From: Terriglobia bacterium
GTDB taxonomy: Bacteria; Acidobacteriota; Terriglobia; Acidiferrales; UBA7541
NCBI GenBank assembly: GCA_020072785.1
Contig: JAIQGG010000002.1
Span: 372,001-436,000, forward strand
DNA: 64,000 nt
Reading direction: 5' to 3'
A program made the position numbers and the translations under genes. Positions 21,045-34,504 of this stretch are shown here, in pieces (positions within the stretch are counted from its first letter, which is position 1; the number at the start of each line of letters is the position of its first letter). The notes below the pieces were generated by a model. It saw nothing but the letters and a program-made list of their open reading frames with translations. It had not been told where the DNA came from and searched no databases.

Positions 21045-21304
21045 CGAATGAAGCTGGCATGTATTCACATCTCTTCTCCTATCACCGTGCCGGATCCCTT
21101 AGGGACCGCTGCGGCCTGAGTGCGTCGTTCTCCGACCAAAATCTCGGATTGACGCTCCGGAATTTTCGGTAAATACAAAGCTACTCGTGGACCATTCGGC
21201 GTGAACCTTCCGTCGGCGCTTTTACTGGACCCACTTACCGCTGCTTGGATCTTCCGGTTGAGCAATCCAAGATGTAGATTGTCCTGTGCGCCGCAAGATT
21301 CTGT

Positions 21305-21332
21305 TTGATTTTGCAAACAATTGATTTAATAT
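21305..21332 (+). promoter_or_regulatory. Candidate sigma-70-like promoter of second hyuA operon
   Basis: TTGATT, 16 bases, then TAATAT, in a short AT-rich patch within otherwise GC-rich DNA, about 75 bases before the hyuA start. It would drive hyuA-hyuB-CoA-transferase. Prediction by eye only. Confidence 0.35.
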
Positions 21333-21408
21333 CGCCAATTCTACTCTCCGGCCCTGGCCGGCGGAGGCCGGGATTTCCCTTCGGCATCCGATTTTCTGGA
21401 GCGTTGCC

Positions 21409-23487
21409 ATGAGCTATCGCCTCGCCGTGGATGTGGGCGGCACCTTTACCGACCTGTTGCTATTCAATGAAAAGGCGGGCGAACTCGTCCTCGCCAAGAC
21501 GCCCTCGACCCCTGCCGATCCCTCAGTGGGCGTGCTCACAGGCATCCACAAGATCGCGGCGAAGGCCGGGATTGACCCCAACGAAATCATGCTGATCCTC
21601 CACGGCACCACCGTGGCTACCAACGCCGTCCTGGAAGGCAAGGGCGCACGCGTCGGCCTCCTCACCAACAAAGGCTTCGAACAGATCCTGCACGTGGCGC
21701 GCGGGCAGACGCCCGGGCCGCTGGCCGGGTGGATCATCATGATCAAGCCGGACCCGCTGGCGCCGCTGGAGCTGACGCGGGGCCTCAGCGCGCGAATGAG
21801 CGCGCGGGGCGAAGTGCAGACGCCGGTGGACGAGAAGGAAGTGCGCGCGCACATCAGCGAGCTGCACAAAGCCGGAATCGAAGCCCTGACCGTTTCGCTG
21901 ATCAACTCCTACGCCAACCACACGCACGAGCAGCAGGTGAAGAAGATCGTTCAGGAGATGTACCCGGACTTGCCGGTGACGGCTTCGACGGACATCCTGC
22001 CGGAATTCCGCGAATACGAACGGACGCTGACGACGGTGATGAACTCCTATCTGCGTCCGAAGATGCGCGTGTACCTCGACGGCATGAAGCAGAAGCTGAA
22101 AGAAAGCAAGCTGAAGGCACCGATGCACATCGTGCGCTCTGATGGCGGGGTGATGAGTATCGAGGCGGCTGCCGAGCGGCCCGCGAACACGCTGCTCTCC
22201 GGCCCTTCAGGCGGCGGCGTGGCTTCGGCGTACCTCGGAGCGCTGGCCGGCTTTTCCAACGTGCTGTCGTTCGACATGGGCGGCACGTCCACGGACGTGG
22301 CGCTCTCGCGCGGCGGCAAACCCAACGTGGTGCGCGACACCCGGGTCGGGCAGTACCCGATCAAAGTTCCCAGCCTGGACGTGCACACGGTAGGCGCGGG
22401 CGGCGGATCGATCGCGCACGTGCCGCTCACCGGAGCGTTGCGCGTGGGCCCGCAATCGGCCGGCGCGGAACCGGGCCCGGCGGCCTACGGCAAGGGCGGC
22501 AGCGAGCCGACGGTGACCGACGCCAACATCGTTTTGGGTTATCTCCCGCCCACGCTGCTGGGCGGGGAAATGACGCTGGACGAAAGCCTCTCCGGCAAAG
22601 CCGTGCAGAAGATCGCCGACGCCATGGGGCTTTCGCTGCACGTCGCGGCCGAAGGCATCTACAACATCGTCAACGAGAACATGTTCGGGGCGCTGCGTCT
22701 GGTGAGCGTGCAGCGCGGCTATGACCCGCGGGAATTCGCGTTGGTCGGACTGGGAGGCGCGGGCCCGCTGCATGCCAACGCGCTGTCGATTCTGATCGGA
22801 TCGTGGCCGTCGATCATTCCGCCCATGCCCGGCGTGCTCTCCGCGCAGGGCTTCCTGCACTCGGACATCAAGAGCGAGTTTTCGCGGACGGTGATCCGGC
22901 CGGTGAGCCAGATCGACCTCAAGCAGATGCGCGCGACGCTGGAAACCCTGGGTGAGCAGGCCCGCGAATGGCTGAATTCCGAGCACATCGCCACGAAACA
23001 CCAGAAGATCCAGTTTCAGATCGACATGCGCTACTACCGGCAAGGCTACGAATTTTCCATCGACGTCGAACCGGGCTGGCTGGATTCTCCCGCCGGCGTG
23101 CAGCGGATGATCGAGAAGTTCCGCCAGATTCATTACCAGAACTACTCCTTCAATATCGATCACGAAGTGGAAGTGGTGAACCTGCGGGCGGTGGCCATCG
23201 GGGTGGTGCCCAAGGTGGAGATCCGCAAACACAAGAAGTCGGGGCAGACGGCGGCCAAAGCGCGCAGCGGCTCGCGGAAGATCTACTTCCGGGGGAAGTG
23301 GATCAACGCGGCGGTGTATGACCGCGCCGGGCTCGGGGCGGGCTGCAAGATCGAAGGGCCGGCGATCGTCACGCAGAGCGACACCACGACGCTCATCCTC
23401 CCGGGGCACATCGGCGAGGTGGACCAGTACCTCAACATTCTGATCTGGCCGAAGGGCAAGCGCGCAGCTTCCCGCGGGAAACGTTAG
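21409..23487 (+). CDS. hyuA: Hydantoinase A/oxoprolinase-type ATP-binding subunit (second copy)
   Basis: A 692-aa paralogue of the gene at 11797-13881. It begins MSYRLAVDVGGTFTD (first ATP-binding loop), has HGTTVATNAVLEGKGA, the second loop SFDMGGTSTDVALS, the GAGGGSIAH turn, PTVTDANIVLGYL and the late LVGLGGAGPLHANAL block. GGAG lies eight bases before the ATG. It is followed by hyuB after 26 bases and then a family III CoA-transferase, a set not seen around the first copy. The pair would act as an ATP-dependent hydrolase or ketone carboxylase. Moderate divergence from the first copy suggests a different substrate, not a recent duplication. Confidence 0.93.
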   Translation: MSYRLAVDVGGTFTDLLLFNEKAGELVLAKTPSTPADPSVGVLTGIHKIAAKAGIDPNEIMLILHGTTVATNAVLEGKGARVGLLTNKGFEQILHVARGQTPGPLAGWIIMIKPDPLAPLELTRGLSARMSARGEVQTPVDEKEVRAHISELHKAGIEALTVSLINSYANHTHEQQVKKIVQEMYPDLPVTASTDILPEFREYERTLTTVMNSYLRPKMRVYLDGMKQKLKESKLKAPMHIVRSDGGVMSIEAAAERPANTLLSGPSGGGVASAYLGALAGFSNVLSFDMGGTSTDVALSRGGKPNVVRDTRVGQYPIKVPSLDVHTVGAGGGSIAHVPLTGALRVGPQSAGAEPGPAAYGKGGSEPTVTDANIVLGYLPPTLLGGEMTLDESLSGKAVQKIADAMGLSLHVAAEGIYNIVNENMFGALRLVSVQRGYDPREFALVGLGGAGPLHANALSILIGSWPSIIPPMPGVLSAQGFLHSDIKSEFSRTVIRPVSQIDLKQMRATLETLGEQAREWLNSEHIATKHQKIQFQIDMRYYRQGYEFSIDVEPGWLDSPAGVQRMIEKFRQIHYQNYSFNIDHEVEVVNLRAVAIGVVPKVEIRKHKKSGQTAAKARSGSRKIYFRGKWINAAVYDRAGLGAGCKIEGPAIVTQSDTTTLILPGHIGEVDQYLNILIWPKGKRAASRGKR

Positions 23488-23513
23488 ACGAAATTCGTGC
23501 GCAGGAGCGAGCC

Positions 23514-25364
23514 ATGGCGAAAAGCATGAAGAAGAAGGCGGGCGGGGCGGGCAAGCGCAAGCTTGTGCCGGTGGACAAGATCACGCTGGACATCGTGGAA
23601 AACGCGCTGCGCAACGCGCGCTTCGAGATGGACACAGTGCTGTTCCGTTCGGCGATGTCCCCGGTGATCCGCGAGCAGCACGACGGCTTCCCGATGATCT
23701 GCACGCCGGACGGGCGCATGGTTGTGGGGCAGTTCGGGTCGTACATCAGTGGGTTCATCGAGGGGTGGAAGCGCGGGATCTTTGACGGCGACGTCTTCCT
23801 GATGAGCGACCCGTACCAGTGCAAGGGCGCGATCTCGCACATCAACGACTGGATGGTGCTCATCCCGATTTTCCATGGCGGGGAGCAGGTGGGGTGGAGC
23901 TCGCAGTTCGGGCACACGATCGACGTGGGCGGGCCGGTTTCGGGGAGTTTGCCGACGGACGCGACGACGATCTTCGGCGAAGGCATGCGCATACCGGCGG
24001 TGAAGCTGTTCGAGCGCGGCAAGCTGAACGAGGACGTGCTGGACCTGCTGCTGAACAACTCGCGCATGCCGACGATGAACTATTTCGACCTGATGGCCAT
24101 CGTGGCGGCGTGCCGCACGGCGGACAAGCGGGTGAAGGAGCTGTGCGAGCGCTTCGGCACAACGCTGTATCTCTCGGCCTGCGAGGCGCTGCTGGAGCGC
24201 ACGCACCGGGCGATGGCGCAGCTGATCGTCAAGAACCTGCCGGAGAAGAAGATCAGCTTCGAGGATTACATTGACGACGACGGCCGGGGTAACGGGCCGT
24301 ACAAGATGAAGCTGACGATCTGGCGGGAAGGCGAACACGGGCACTTCGACTGGACCGGCACGGACCCGCAAGCGCCCGGCCCGATCAACTTCTTCCTGAA
24401 CGAAGAGATGTTCAAGATGTTCATCGGCGTGTACCTGATCATGGTCTTCGACCCGCAGATTCTTTTCAACGACGGGTTTTACCCGCTGCTGCACGTCACG
24501 CAGCCCGCGGGCAGCCTCATTCAGCCGAAGTTTCCGGCGGCGCTGGGCTGCCGGACGCACGCGCTGACGCGGCTCTTCGACGTGCTGGGCGGGGCGCTGG
24601 GGCAGCAGGCGCCGGACCTGACCACGGCGGCCGGGTACGGCACATCGCCGTACCTGCTCTATAACGGCACGGACGAGCGCGGCGAATTCTTCCACCTGAT
24701 GGAGATCAGTTTCGGGGGGATCCCGGGCCGCCCGTTTGGCGACGGGATGGACGCGCACTCCTGGTGGCCGCTGTTCGAAAACATTCCCAGCGAGTATCTG
24801 GAGACCTATTACCCGATCACGGTCCTGGAGTACGGCTCGCTCATGGATTCCGGTGGAGCTGGTTTTTACCGCGGGGGCAACGGGGTGCACAAGGTCTACC
24901 GCTTCGAGGCCGACGGGGAGATCGCGATTCATGATGACCGGGAGCGCTCGCAGCCGTGGGGGATTCTCGGCGGACAGCCGGGGCAGACGAGCACGAAGGT
25001 GCTGCTGCGGACGAACGGGGAAAAGGTCAACCTGCCGTCGAAGATCACCGGGGTGAAGGTTGCGAAGGGCGACCGGCTGATCTACCGCACGGCGGGTGGA
25101 GGCGGGTGGAAGGACCCGCTGGAGCGGCCGGCGGAGCGGGTGCAGGCGGACGTGCAGCGGCGGCTGGTGTCGCACGAAAAGGCGCGCAGCGATTACGGGG
25201 TGATCCTCGATGCGAAAACGCTGGCGCCGGATGCCAGCGGAACAAAGCAACTGCGGGAAAAGATGCGCAGGGAACGCGGTGCGGTGGAGAAGTTCACGTT
25301 CGGGCCGGTACCCGAGGCGATCGGCGTGCGCAAAGCCGGCGCCGGGAATCAGGCGGCGAAGTAA
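23514..25364 (+). CDS. hyuB: Hydantoinase B/oxoprolinase-type subunit (second copy)
   Basis: A 616-aa partner of the preceding hyuA. It starts with a basic tail, then VDKITLDIVENALRNARFEMDTVLFRSAMS, MSDPYQCKGAISHINDW (family metal/active-site region), SSQFGHTIDVGGPVSGS, the late GAGFYRGGNGVHKVY and the C-terminal GGGWKDPLERP. Unlike the first HyuB it has no Cys-rich gamma-like tail. The usual length for the family is about 510-650 aa. Together with HyuA it probably carboxylates or hydrolyses a carbonyl substrate, with the product perhaps then activated by the CoA-transferase 39 bases downstream. Confidence 0.92.
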   Translation: MAKSMKKKAGGAGKRKLVPVDKITLDIVENALRNARFEMDTVLFRSAMSPVIREQHDGFPMICTPDGRMVVGQFGSYISGFIEGWKRGIFDGDVFLMSDPYQCKGAISHINDWMVLIPIFHGGEQVGWSSQFGHTIDVGGPVSGSLPTDATTIFGEGMRIPAVKLFERGKLNEDVLDLLLNNSRMPTMNYFDLMAIVAACRTADKRVKELCERFGTTLYLSACEALLERTHRAMAQLIVKNLPEKKISFEDYIDDDGRGNGPYKMKLTIWREGEHGHFDWTGTDPQAPGPINFFLNEEMFKMFIGVYLIMVFDPQILFNDGFYPLLHVTQPAGSLIQPKFPAALGCRTHALTRLFDVLGGALGQQAPDLTTAAGYGTSPYLLYNGTDERGEFFHLMEISFGGIPGRPFGDGMDAHSWWPLFENIPSEYLETYYPITVLEYGSLMDSGGAGFYRGGNGVHKVYRFEADGEIAIHDDRERSQPWGILGGQPGQTSTKVLLRTNGEKVNLPSKITGVKVAKGDRLIYRTAGGGGWKDPLERPAERVQADVQRRLVSHEKARSDYGVILDAKTLAPDASGTKQLREKMRRERGAVEKFTFGPVPEAIGVRKAGAGNQAAK

Positions 25365-33090: not shown

Positions 33091-33109
33091 TGTGGGGCAG
33101 GCTCCGGGA

Positions 33110-33140
33110 GAGGGCGCTTGCGAGAGCGCCCTCTTTTTAT
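33110..33140 (+). terminator. Rho-independent terminator after the TonB receptor gene
   Basis: A perfect 9-bp stem GAGGGCGCT/AGCGCCCTC with a 6-base loop, followed by TTTTTAT. It lies 19 bases after the receptor stop codon and ends the lyase-hydrolase-receptor transcript. Confidence 0.9.
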
Positions 33141-33154
33141 TGGAAGGAGGAGAA

Positions 33155-33547
33155 ATGGCCATAAAGCATGCGCGGGATTGGTACGTGGACCTGGCGGTGA
33201 AGAAGTACTTCGCCAACGTGGATCGCAAGAATCTGCAGGGGGTTCTGGACTGCTTAAACGAGGATGCGGTGTTCACCATCCAGTCGCACTTCTCGGAGCA
33301 TCGCGGGCGGGATACCGGCATCCGCAAAATGTTCGAGGAGCTTTTCCAGTACCGGACCATTCTGCACACGGATTTCGAACACATTGTCGACGTCGAAAGC
33401 GAAGCCATCTCCTCGCGCTTCCGCGTGGAGCTCGACCCGGTCAGCGGGCCGCACGTGCACCTCATGAACGTCAACCACTGGTATGTGAAGAACGACAAGT
33501 TTCAGCGCGTCTACGTGTGGATGAGCGGCGAGAATGTGCTGAAATAG
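33155..33547 (+). CDS. NTF2-like/SnoaL-type small protein
   Basis: A 130-aa protein starting at ATG 33155 with AAGGAGG a few bases upstream. The pattern of an N-terminal helix (DLAVKKYFANVDRKNLQGVLDCLNEDAVFTI), a conserved HRG turn and a curved sheet (FEHIVDVESEAISSRFRVELD; VNHWYVKNDKFQRVYVWMSG) is the NTF2/SnoaL cone fold, found in small-molecule isomerases, dehydratases and ligand carriers. No fixed catalytic set can be read. It lies just after a terminator, so it has its own promoter or depends on read-through. Probably island cargo. Confidence 0.78.
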   Translation: MAIKHARDWYVDLAVKKYFANVDRKNLQGVLDCLNEDAVFTIQSHFSEHRGRDTGIRKMFEELFQYRTILHTDFEHIVDVESEAISSRFRVELDPVSGPHVHLMNVNHWYVKNDKFQRVYVWMSGENVLK

Positions 33548-33574: not shown

Positions 33575-33727
33575 TTGAAGGCCGTACGATTCCACGAGCG
33601 TGGCAGCCCCGGCGTGCTCCGCTACGAAGATGCGCCCGAACCAAAGCCCGGCGGGGTGAGACTACCGACAAGCAATCTCCAGGACTCGGTGATCTGGGCC
33701 AATTACAAACTTCTTAAGATTGATTAG
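33575..33727 (+). pseudogene. N-terminal fragment of a zinc-type alcohol dehydrogenase/quinone reductase
   Basis: From TTG 33575 (GGAG upstream) the frame reads (M)KAVRFHERGSPGVLRYEDAP then EPKPGG, the unmistakable start of medium-chain dehydrogenases of the quinone-oxidoreductase group. Homology stops after about 28 codons; unrelated residues follow to a stop at 33727. Nothing of the catalytic or Rossmann domain remains. It marks a deletion or insertion scar near the right end of island A. Confidence 0.75.
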
Positions 33728-33763: not shown

Positions 33764-34504
33764 ATGACGTTTTGCCTGTACTACCGGCCGGGTTGAAGCT
33801 CCTGCGCGAAAACGAAAGAGTTGCTTTCGTCGTGGGGAATCCCGTTTGACGCTATAAACGTGGAAGGAAATCCGTCGTCACTCCAAGAGCTTGAGCGTCG
33901 CGGCCTGCGGCTTGTGCCCGTGCTCACGGACGGCGAACGCTTTTTCCACGGCTGGAACCCGAAGGAACTTGCACGCTTTGTCGGTGTAGAACATCGCGAA
34001 GCTAAGCGATTGGAAACCGCAGAGCTGGCGTGTCGGCTGCTTCGAATCCTCGCAGCTGCAGAACGCGCGATTCTCGAAGTCCCTCCGAAAGGGTTAAAAG
34101 TCAAAGTTCCAAATCGTGACCGCACGGTATGCGACCTTGCTTTTCATCTCTTCCGGCTGAGCCTGGCGTATCGCGATGCAGTTGAGACCCGATATTTTCC
34201 CGAAAGCTGGCTGCAAGAAACTGCCCCGCCGGAAATGCACGACGGGGCCGCTCTCGCACGGTACGGGGAGGGGGTCAGGAAGCAGTTGACGGCATGGTGG
34301 ACACGCACGGACATAAGCCAAGACAACATCGTGACTTACTATGGGTGCCAGACAGGACCCGAGTTGCTTGAGAGAACGGTGTGGCATGCAGCTCATCACT
34401 TGCGCCAGCTCTATGCATTAATCGAAGGCATGGGCTCCATGCCGAAAGATCCGCTAGCCAACGCCGACTTCGAGGGGCTGCCGCTCCCTCACCAATTGTG
34501 GTGA
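33764..34504 (+). CDS. Candidate selenocysteine glutaredoxin-DinB fusion (in-frame UGA)
   Basis: From ATG 33764 the frame reads MTFCLYYRPG, UGA (33794-33796), then SSCAKTKELL and SWGIPFDAINVEGNP, continuing without a further stop to 34504 (246 aa if UGA is decoded). Residues 1-75 match a glutaredoxin fold, with UGA at the first Cys of the CxxC motif (U11-S-S-C14). Residues about 85-246 are DinB/DUF-like helices with His in DLAFHLF and in VWHAAHH, a likely metal site. Cys-containing relatives with PGCSSC exist to my knowledge. A hairpin of bacterial-SECIS geometry starts 8 bases past the UGA. The alternative is a nonsense-mutated pseudogene, plausible because neighbours are broken. A TTG start at 33821 would discard the active site. 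Confidence 0.65.
33805..33834 (+). promoter_or_regulatory. Candidate bacterial SECIS element
   Basis: Just after the UGA codon: lower stem CGCG/CGTG (one G-U), a three-A bulge, then upper stem ACGAAAG/CTTTCGT closed by loop AGTTG. The apical loop begins 22 bases after the UGA, within the range described for bacterial SECIS elements, and has G-U in the loop as in fdhF-type elements. It lies in the coding sequence, as bacterial SECIS elements do. Hand-folded; SelB binding is inference. Confidence 0.5.

Follow-up and report, generated by a model that had tools for sequence, protein, structure and literature searches.

Does the UGA codon that interrupts a glutaredoxin–DinB reading frame in a Terriglobia bacterium (Acidobacteriota; GCA_020072785.1) encode selenocysteine (Sec), or is it a nonsense mutation in a decaying gene? 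The question arose from an earlier note on a 64,000-nt stretch of contig JAIQGG010000002.1 (positions 372,001–436,000; hereafter, the window), in which an ATG-initiated frame was described as open past a UGA located at the first Cys position of a glutaredoxin CxxC motif. Both points were borne out by translation with TGA read through, which yields a protein beginning with MTFCLYYRPG-U-SSCAKTKELLSSWG and leaves the in-frame TGA as the sole interruption of the frame. In the window gene and in all its relatives, the UGA lies at the redox-active site (U-S-S-C), the arrangement by which a bacterial selenoprotein is recognized. The comparative evidence assembled here indicates that this is almost certainly an intact selenoprotein gene, in which a glutaredoxin (Grx) domain with a decoded Sec is fused to a DinB domain:

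33764–34504, plus strand: predicted Sec–glutaredoxin–DinB fusion gene, starting with ATG at 33764, with UGA at codon 11 and a TGA stop at 34502–34504, 246 aa (translation with TGA read as U; full-length orthologues in other genomes).
33794–33796, plus strand: predicted Sec-encoding UGA, opening the CxxC motif (U11-S-S-C14; the codon is TGA in 33 of 33 relatives and in 31 of 31 loci of a second set, with genomes partly shared between the sets).
33803–33805, plus strand: Cys14, the presumed resolving cysteine (invariant in a 21-sequence alignment).
33764–33991, plus strand: glutaredoxin/NrdH-like thioredoxin-fold domain, residues 1–76, with presumed cis-Pro52 (PF00462 in 21 of 21 members; VIA-align Z 12–13 to NrdH and other redoxins).
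34007–34465, plus strand: DinB/S-transferase-like four-helix domain, residues about 82–234 (AlphaFold2, PDB match, and Pfam DinB_2).
34145–34147, plus strand: His128, first putative metal ligand (invariant in 21 sequences).
34385–34399, plus strand: His208-x3-His212, second and third putative metal ligands (invariant in 21 sequences).

Residues 5–58 match the Pfam Glutaredoxin profile PF00462 with an E value of 8e-11 and a score of 42.4 bits (gathering threshold, 22.9), and U11, C14, and P52 are invariant across the 21 aligned sequences, as expected of a glutaredoxin. The AlphaFold2 model obtained with 21 family members has a mean pLDDT of 91.5 and a pTM of 0.89. The best PDB match of its C-terminal domain is the DinB/YfiT protein DR0053 (Z 15.9, rmsd 2.4 over 142 residues), and matches to mycothiol S-transferase and maleylpyruvate isomerase have Z values of about 12–13, a range that calls for caution in the case of helical bundles. 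Pfam DinB_2 matches 19 of the 21 members at E ≤ 0.01, and the window sequence alone scores below the gathering cut-off for Pfam DinB. The three conserved metal-binding histidines of the DinB/S-transferase-like superfamily (H...HxxxH) have counterparts in H128, H208, and H212, which are invariant in all 21 sequences; the His site of BstA has the same pattern (H67/H160/H164), and B. subtilis bacillithiol transferases depend on a metal (PMC5815605).

A complete Sec machinery is encoded in the host genome (3.73 Mb, 98.9% complete), where a search for selA, selB, selC, and selD recovered all four, with E values of 7e-167 for selA and 2e-106 for selB, and with selC in two copies, both tRNA-Sec genes having the UCA anticodon:

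G000:C2:1115713 and C2:1112064 (L004 and L005:1501–1599): the two host tRNA-Sec genes.
G000:C1:111200–112165 (L138): host selD, with one in-frame TGA.

The two tRNA-Sec genes lie 3.65 kb apart and are 88% identical, with the similarity reaching only about 54 nt upstream; two sister genomes have one tRNA-Sec gene each, compared with the two in the host. Because selD itself contains an in-frame TGA, the host SelD is probably a selenoprotein as well. Among the genomes that carry the fusion gene, tRNA-Sec was found in 17 of the 18 tested and was not detected in a Binatota bin, which is a fragmented MAG.

If the UGA were an accident of this genome, close relatives could be expected to have TGC at this codon, to have lost the hairpin that the earlier note described just downstream, or to carry other stops. 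In the two orthologues from the same genus (72% and 70% identity), TGA is located at the same codon, there is no further internal stop, and the hairpin is kept. A search of the remaining 92 genomes of the host's order did not find the fusion gene. A contig scan with the single window protein as query returned nothing, and one with the three-sequence alignment, covering about 85,000 species genomes, returned 33 loci from at least six phyla (Acidobacteriota, Binatota, Nitrospinota, Rokubacteria, SAR324, Tectomicrobia, and Lambdaproteobacteria being the lineages represented). At 41–72% protein identity, this codon is TGA in every one of the 33, and the full-length copies run on for 235–241 codons to a stop. 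A profile search of 95 genomes of the Rokubacteria phylum, which was independent of DNA patterns, gave 51 matches spanning the N terminus, every one with the TGA; when profile-found loci, a set partly overlapping the 33, were checked by position, TGA was present in 31 of 31. The Rokubacteria matches that lack the TGA begin at residue 75 or later and comprise the DinB part alone. Those in G558:C96, G559:C182, G560:C6, G561:C21, G562:C109, and G568:C214 have no Grx domain, and such matches are possibly stand-alone paralogues.

The fusion gene is rare in Acidobacteriota (2 of 396 sampled genomes). The phylogenetic tree separates the Acidobacteriota and Binatota sequences from the main Rokubacteria clade, to which three of the Rokubacteria sequences do not belong; several of its branches are long, and its pattern suggests, without proving, transfer of the gene between phyla. 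An alternation of Sec and Cys at this column, which the earlier note had held up as a sign of Sec decoding, did not materialize: every fusion has TGA, and Cys occurs solely in single-domain glutaredoxins. No Cys fusion appeared among the scan loci, though one of the two peptide patterns demanded Cys in the motif. The fusion family seems always to use Sec, and never Cys, at this site.

The hairpin, which was said to comprise a perfect 7-bp stem with a 5-base loop beginning 15 nt past the UGA, is present exactly as described:

33812–33830, plus strand: predicted bacterial SECIS core, a 7-bp stem of ACGAAAG (33812–33818) and CTTTCGT (33824–33830) enclosing the loop AGUUG at 33819–33823 (published bSECIS terms, compensatory changes, and synonymous conservation of the paired ACG/TCG codons).
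33807–33835, plus strand: possible extension of the SECIS by a lower stem, imperfect in the window gene and well formed in Rokubacteria.

The published model of the bacterial SECIS specifies a loop of 3–9 nt, a stem of 4–16 bp, a G in the first two loop positions, a spacing of 16–37 nt from the UGA, and an MFE of −7.5 or lower (PMC13188914); the window hairpin has a 5-nt loop (AGUUG), a 7-bp stem, a UGA-to-loop spacing of 22 nt, and an MFE of −15.3. The four additional pairs claimed for it fared less well: the MFE fold of the window gene's own sequence includes them, whereas close relatives do not form them in the same way. What is conserved is the upper stem, and a lower extension persists chiefly in Rokubacteria. 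Taken singly, the sequence has an unremarkable folding energy compared with shuffled sequences (z about −1), and this energy was dropped as evidence, so that the case for a SECIS rests on comparison.

This comparison was informative in several ways. Searching the 3.73-Mb host genome for the pattern TGA-N17-GAAAGAGT-N2-CTTTC with one mismatch allowed yielded two sites, both in glutaredoxin UxxC motifs, and a reversed-pattern control yielded none. The site outside the fusion gene belongs to a single-domain glutaredoxin with identical UGA position and hairpin spacing:

G000:C3:20578–20808 (L001:1486–1716): second UGA glutaredoxin of the host, MQKPIVYSQPG-U-IFC..., with the same hairpin 15 nt past the UGA.

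Sec glutaredoxins similar to this one were found in several genomes of the host's family. The seven stem pairs are formed in 92% of the cells in Sec fusion genes, in 91% in Sec glutaredoxins, and in 31% in 16 Cys glutaredoxin genes, nearly all of which come from genomes of the same bacterial family. Across 154 codon columns, excess synonymous conservation is greatest in Thr+6, which is invariably ACG, and Ser+11, which is invariably TCG; these two codons pair with each other in the stem. The first 33 loci had been selected partly by the peptide TKELLSSW, which overlies the hairpin, and the profile-found loci are free of that bias. Within the latter set, four distinct sequences have C-G in place of A-U at pair 22–34, with Arg CGN at +7 occurring only with Ala GCG at +11, and further compensatory changes from A-U to G-C affect pairs 23–33 and 17–39; pair 22–34 is broken in two sequences (A opposite G). 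Another compensatory change, from AU to GC, was found at pair 19–37, and when single-domain Sec glutaredoxins were included, pairs 19–37 and 20–36 were changed on both sides. A first pair count over the 7-bp stem in 32 sequences showed modest covariation relative to shuffles, and the wider set was clearer: in the fusion family, the paired fraction of 0.884 and the 11 double changes exceed all 1,000 shuffles (maxima, 0.875 and 9), in a test where relatedness of the sequences lies outside the shuffle model. The hairpin covaries in the wider relatives, and on this comparative evidence, it is a conserved RNA element.

We also analyzed the genomic neighborhoods of the fusion gene. At most Rokubacteria loci (L066, L087, L078, L062, and others), a gene for enoyl-CoA hydratase/isomerase (PF00378, E 3e-57) is located upstream on the same strand and is often adjacent. 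No conserved neighbor genes were evident at the examined loci outside Rokubacteria, and we therefore infer no operon for the window gene. Between the SnoaL_2 gene (33092–33547) and the fusion gene, the window contains a short truncated ORF (33577–33717) that resembles by eye the start of a zinc alcohol dehydrogenase and has no Pfam match. The DNA beside the fusion gene in the sister genome (L055:1–2964) matches window positions 21299–24253 at 84.5%; since this stretch lies about 10 kb from the fusion gene and is inverted relative to the sister genome, the locus has been rearranged.

Three alternatives to Sec decoding have to be weighed. Translation might end at the UGA, and a second initiation event, for example at TTG 33821, where a 227-aa ORF begins, might supply the DinB part on its own; the DinB-only matches in some Rokubacteria would fit such an arrangement. 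A protein started at this TTG, however, would lack strand 1 and a large part of helix 1 of the redoxin fold, whereas conservation of the Grx domain extends across the UGA (RPG before it; Cys14 and Pro52 after it), and the stem covaries, making this alternative very improbable.

The possibility kept alive by the earlier note, that of a nonsense mutation in a decaying Cys glutaredoxin–DinB gene, draws on the truncated ORF just upstream and on the rearrangement of the locus relative to the sister genome. It is refuted by the same TGA in 33 of 33 relatives from several phyla, at 41–72% protein identity, together with purifying selection past the UGA. Among close relatives, dN/dS is about 0.08 in the Grx part past the UGA and 0.14–0.18 in DinB, with synonymous sites near saturation, which argues against gene decay; by these estimates, the coding frame downstream of the UGA is under purifying selection. 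With no other stop in the frame, the hairpin conserved, and the Sec machinery present, we regard the probability of decay as negligible. No more credence can be given to a reading of UGA as Trp or Cys in this host, for which no favorable evidence was found, considering that the gene itself and many orthologues end in TGA and that a UCA-anticodon tRNA with tRNA-Sec architecture, SelA, SelB, and a conserved SECIS are present. Decoding of the UGA as Sec, as originally proposed, is thus supported by the machinery, the conserved codon, and the conserved hairpin, and every computable test identifies the product as a Grx-domain selenoprotein of the bacterial type.

How does this protein relate to known systems? 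The Sec-containing glutaredoxin (Grx, UxxC) is an experimentally verified selenoprotein (PMC13188914) that shares with the fusion protein the Grx fold and a Sec in the first active-site position of a UxxC motif with a resolving Cys but is a single-domain protein without DinB, for which U/C variation at the active site has been described. The NCBIfam Uxx-star families (NF041212, NF041211, and NF047338) and the HUGP/GUXX-star fusion (NF045501) also contain a Grx-like Sec domain, but the fusion protein matches their profiles weakly (36.4 bits or less), below all curated cut-offs (66–325 bits); it scores 36.4 bits against a cut-off of 66 for NF041212 and 25.8 against 325 for NF045501, in which, moreover, the fusion partner differs. 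The BstA/YfiT bacillithiol transferase, mycothiol S-transferase, and mycothiol-dependent maleylpyruvate isomerase share the four-helix DinB fold, the three-His site, and an expected low-molecular-weight thiol chemistry, but the solved DinB/S-transferase-like members matched here have no redoxin domain and show 8–18% identity in structural alignments. In glutathione S-transferases and Grx2, a thioredoxin-fold N-terminal domain is likewise followed by an all-helical C-terminal domain, which, however, is GST_C rather than DinB. A GST-like fold of the whole chain was considered and rejected, given the poor Foldseek superpositions (TM 0.45 or less; rmsd about 9–16 Å).

The claim of a new architecture holds for the fusion and not for the Sec glutaredoxin as such, which was already known. 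The Grx–DinB combination is absent from NCBIfam, and a DinB selenoprotein is absent from the 2026 catalogue of 119 selenoprotein families, a review that takes in families from Haft and Tolstoy (mSystems 2025). None is named in the main text of the deep-Sep paper either, and our search of the open-access literature found no report of a DinB selenoprotein. The novelty lies in the Grx–DinB architecture, together with an apparent lack of Cys versions.

Directed by the hairpin just downstream, SelB and tRNA-Sec(UCA) almost certainly decode the UGA of codon 11 as Sec, producing a UxxC glutaredoxin/NrdH-type domain joined to an S-transferase-like DinB domain with a putative three-His metal site. As to metal binding, the thiol partner, and the reaction, we infer the following. 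The metal site may activate a low-molecular-weight thiol (bacillithiol in the host, another thiol in Rokubacteria) or a thiol-linked substrate, from which a mixed disulfide, thioester, or thioether would arise. This sulfur species could then be attacked or reduced by the Sec, a highly reactive residue, of the tethered redoxin, and Cys14 would resolve the selenenylsulfide, so that a single polypeptide would carry out both the transfer and the reductive release. The host probably makes bacillithiol, since it has bshC; bshC was not found in the tested Rokubacteria carriers, so that bacillithiol is not a general co-substrate and was rejected as the universal thiol partner; either the partner varies among carriers or it is another compound altogether. 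We advance this specific scheme of metal-dependent thiol transfer and reduction tentatively. It competes with a simpler view that leaves Sec decoding untouched, namely, that DinB serves only for binding or as a structural element, the protein itself being a plain reductase in the manner of NrdH/Grx. This view, too, is possible although somewhat doubtful: the closest matches of the Grx domain are redoxins of the NrdH/YruB type, but His128, His208, and His212 are invariant, and a noncatalytic scaffold would not need them. Returning to the thiol-transfer scheme, its more general form, in which an obligate-Sec family combines a Sec redoxin and a DinB metal–thiol transferase into one self-sufficient enzyme, comes closer to an even prospect while still falling short of it.

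The fusion appears to add a widespread selenoprotein family, present in about half of the sampled genomes of the Rokubacteria phylum and in other, mostly uncultured lineages; its range takes in several phyla of soil and deep-branching bacteria. The usual methods probably miss this family because they seek Cys/Sec alternation, none of which was seen here, and standard gene callers will truncate the fusion gene or label it a pseudogene. By tying selenium chemistry to DinB thiol-transferase chemistry, the family provides a specific enzyme in which the contribution of Sec to that chemistry can be studied. If the proposed function is correct, it would represent a selenium-dependent counterpart of GST-like reductive thiol transfer in several phyla, linked to enoyl-CoA hydratase metabolism in Rokubacteria.
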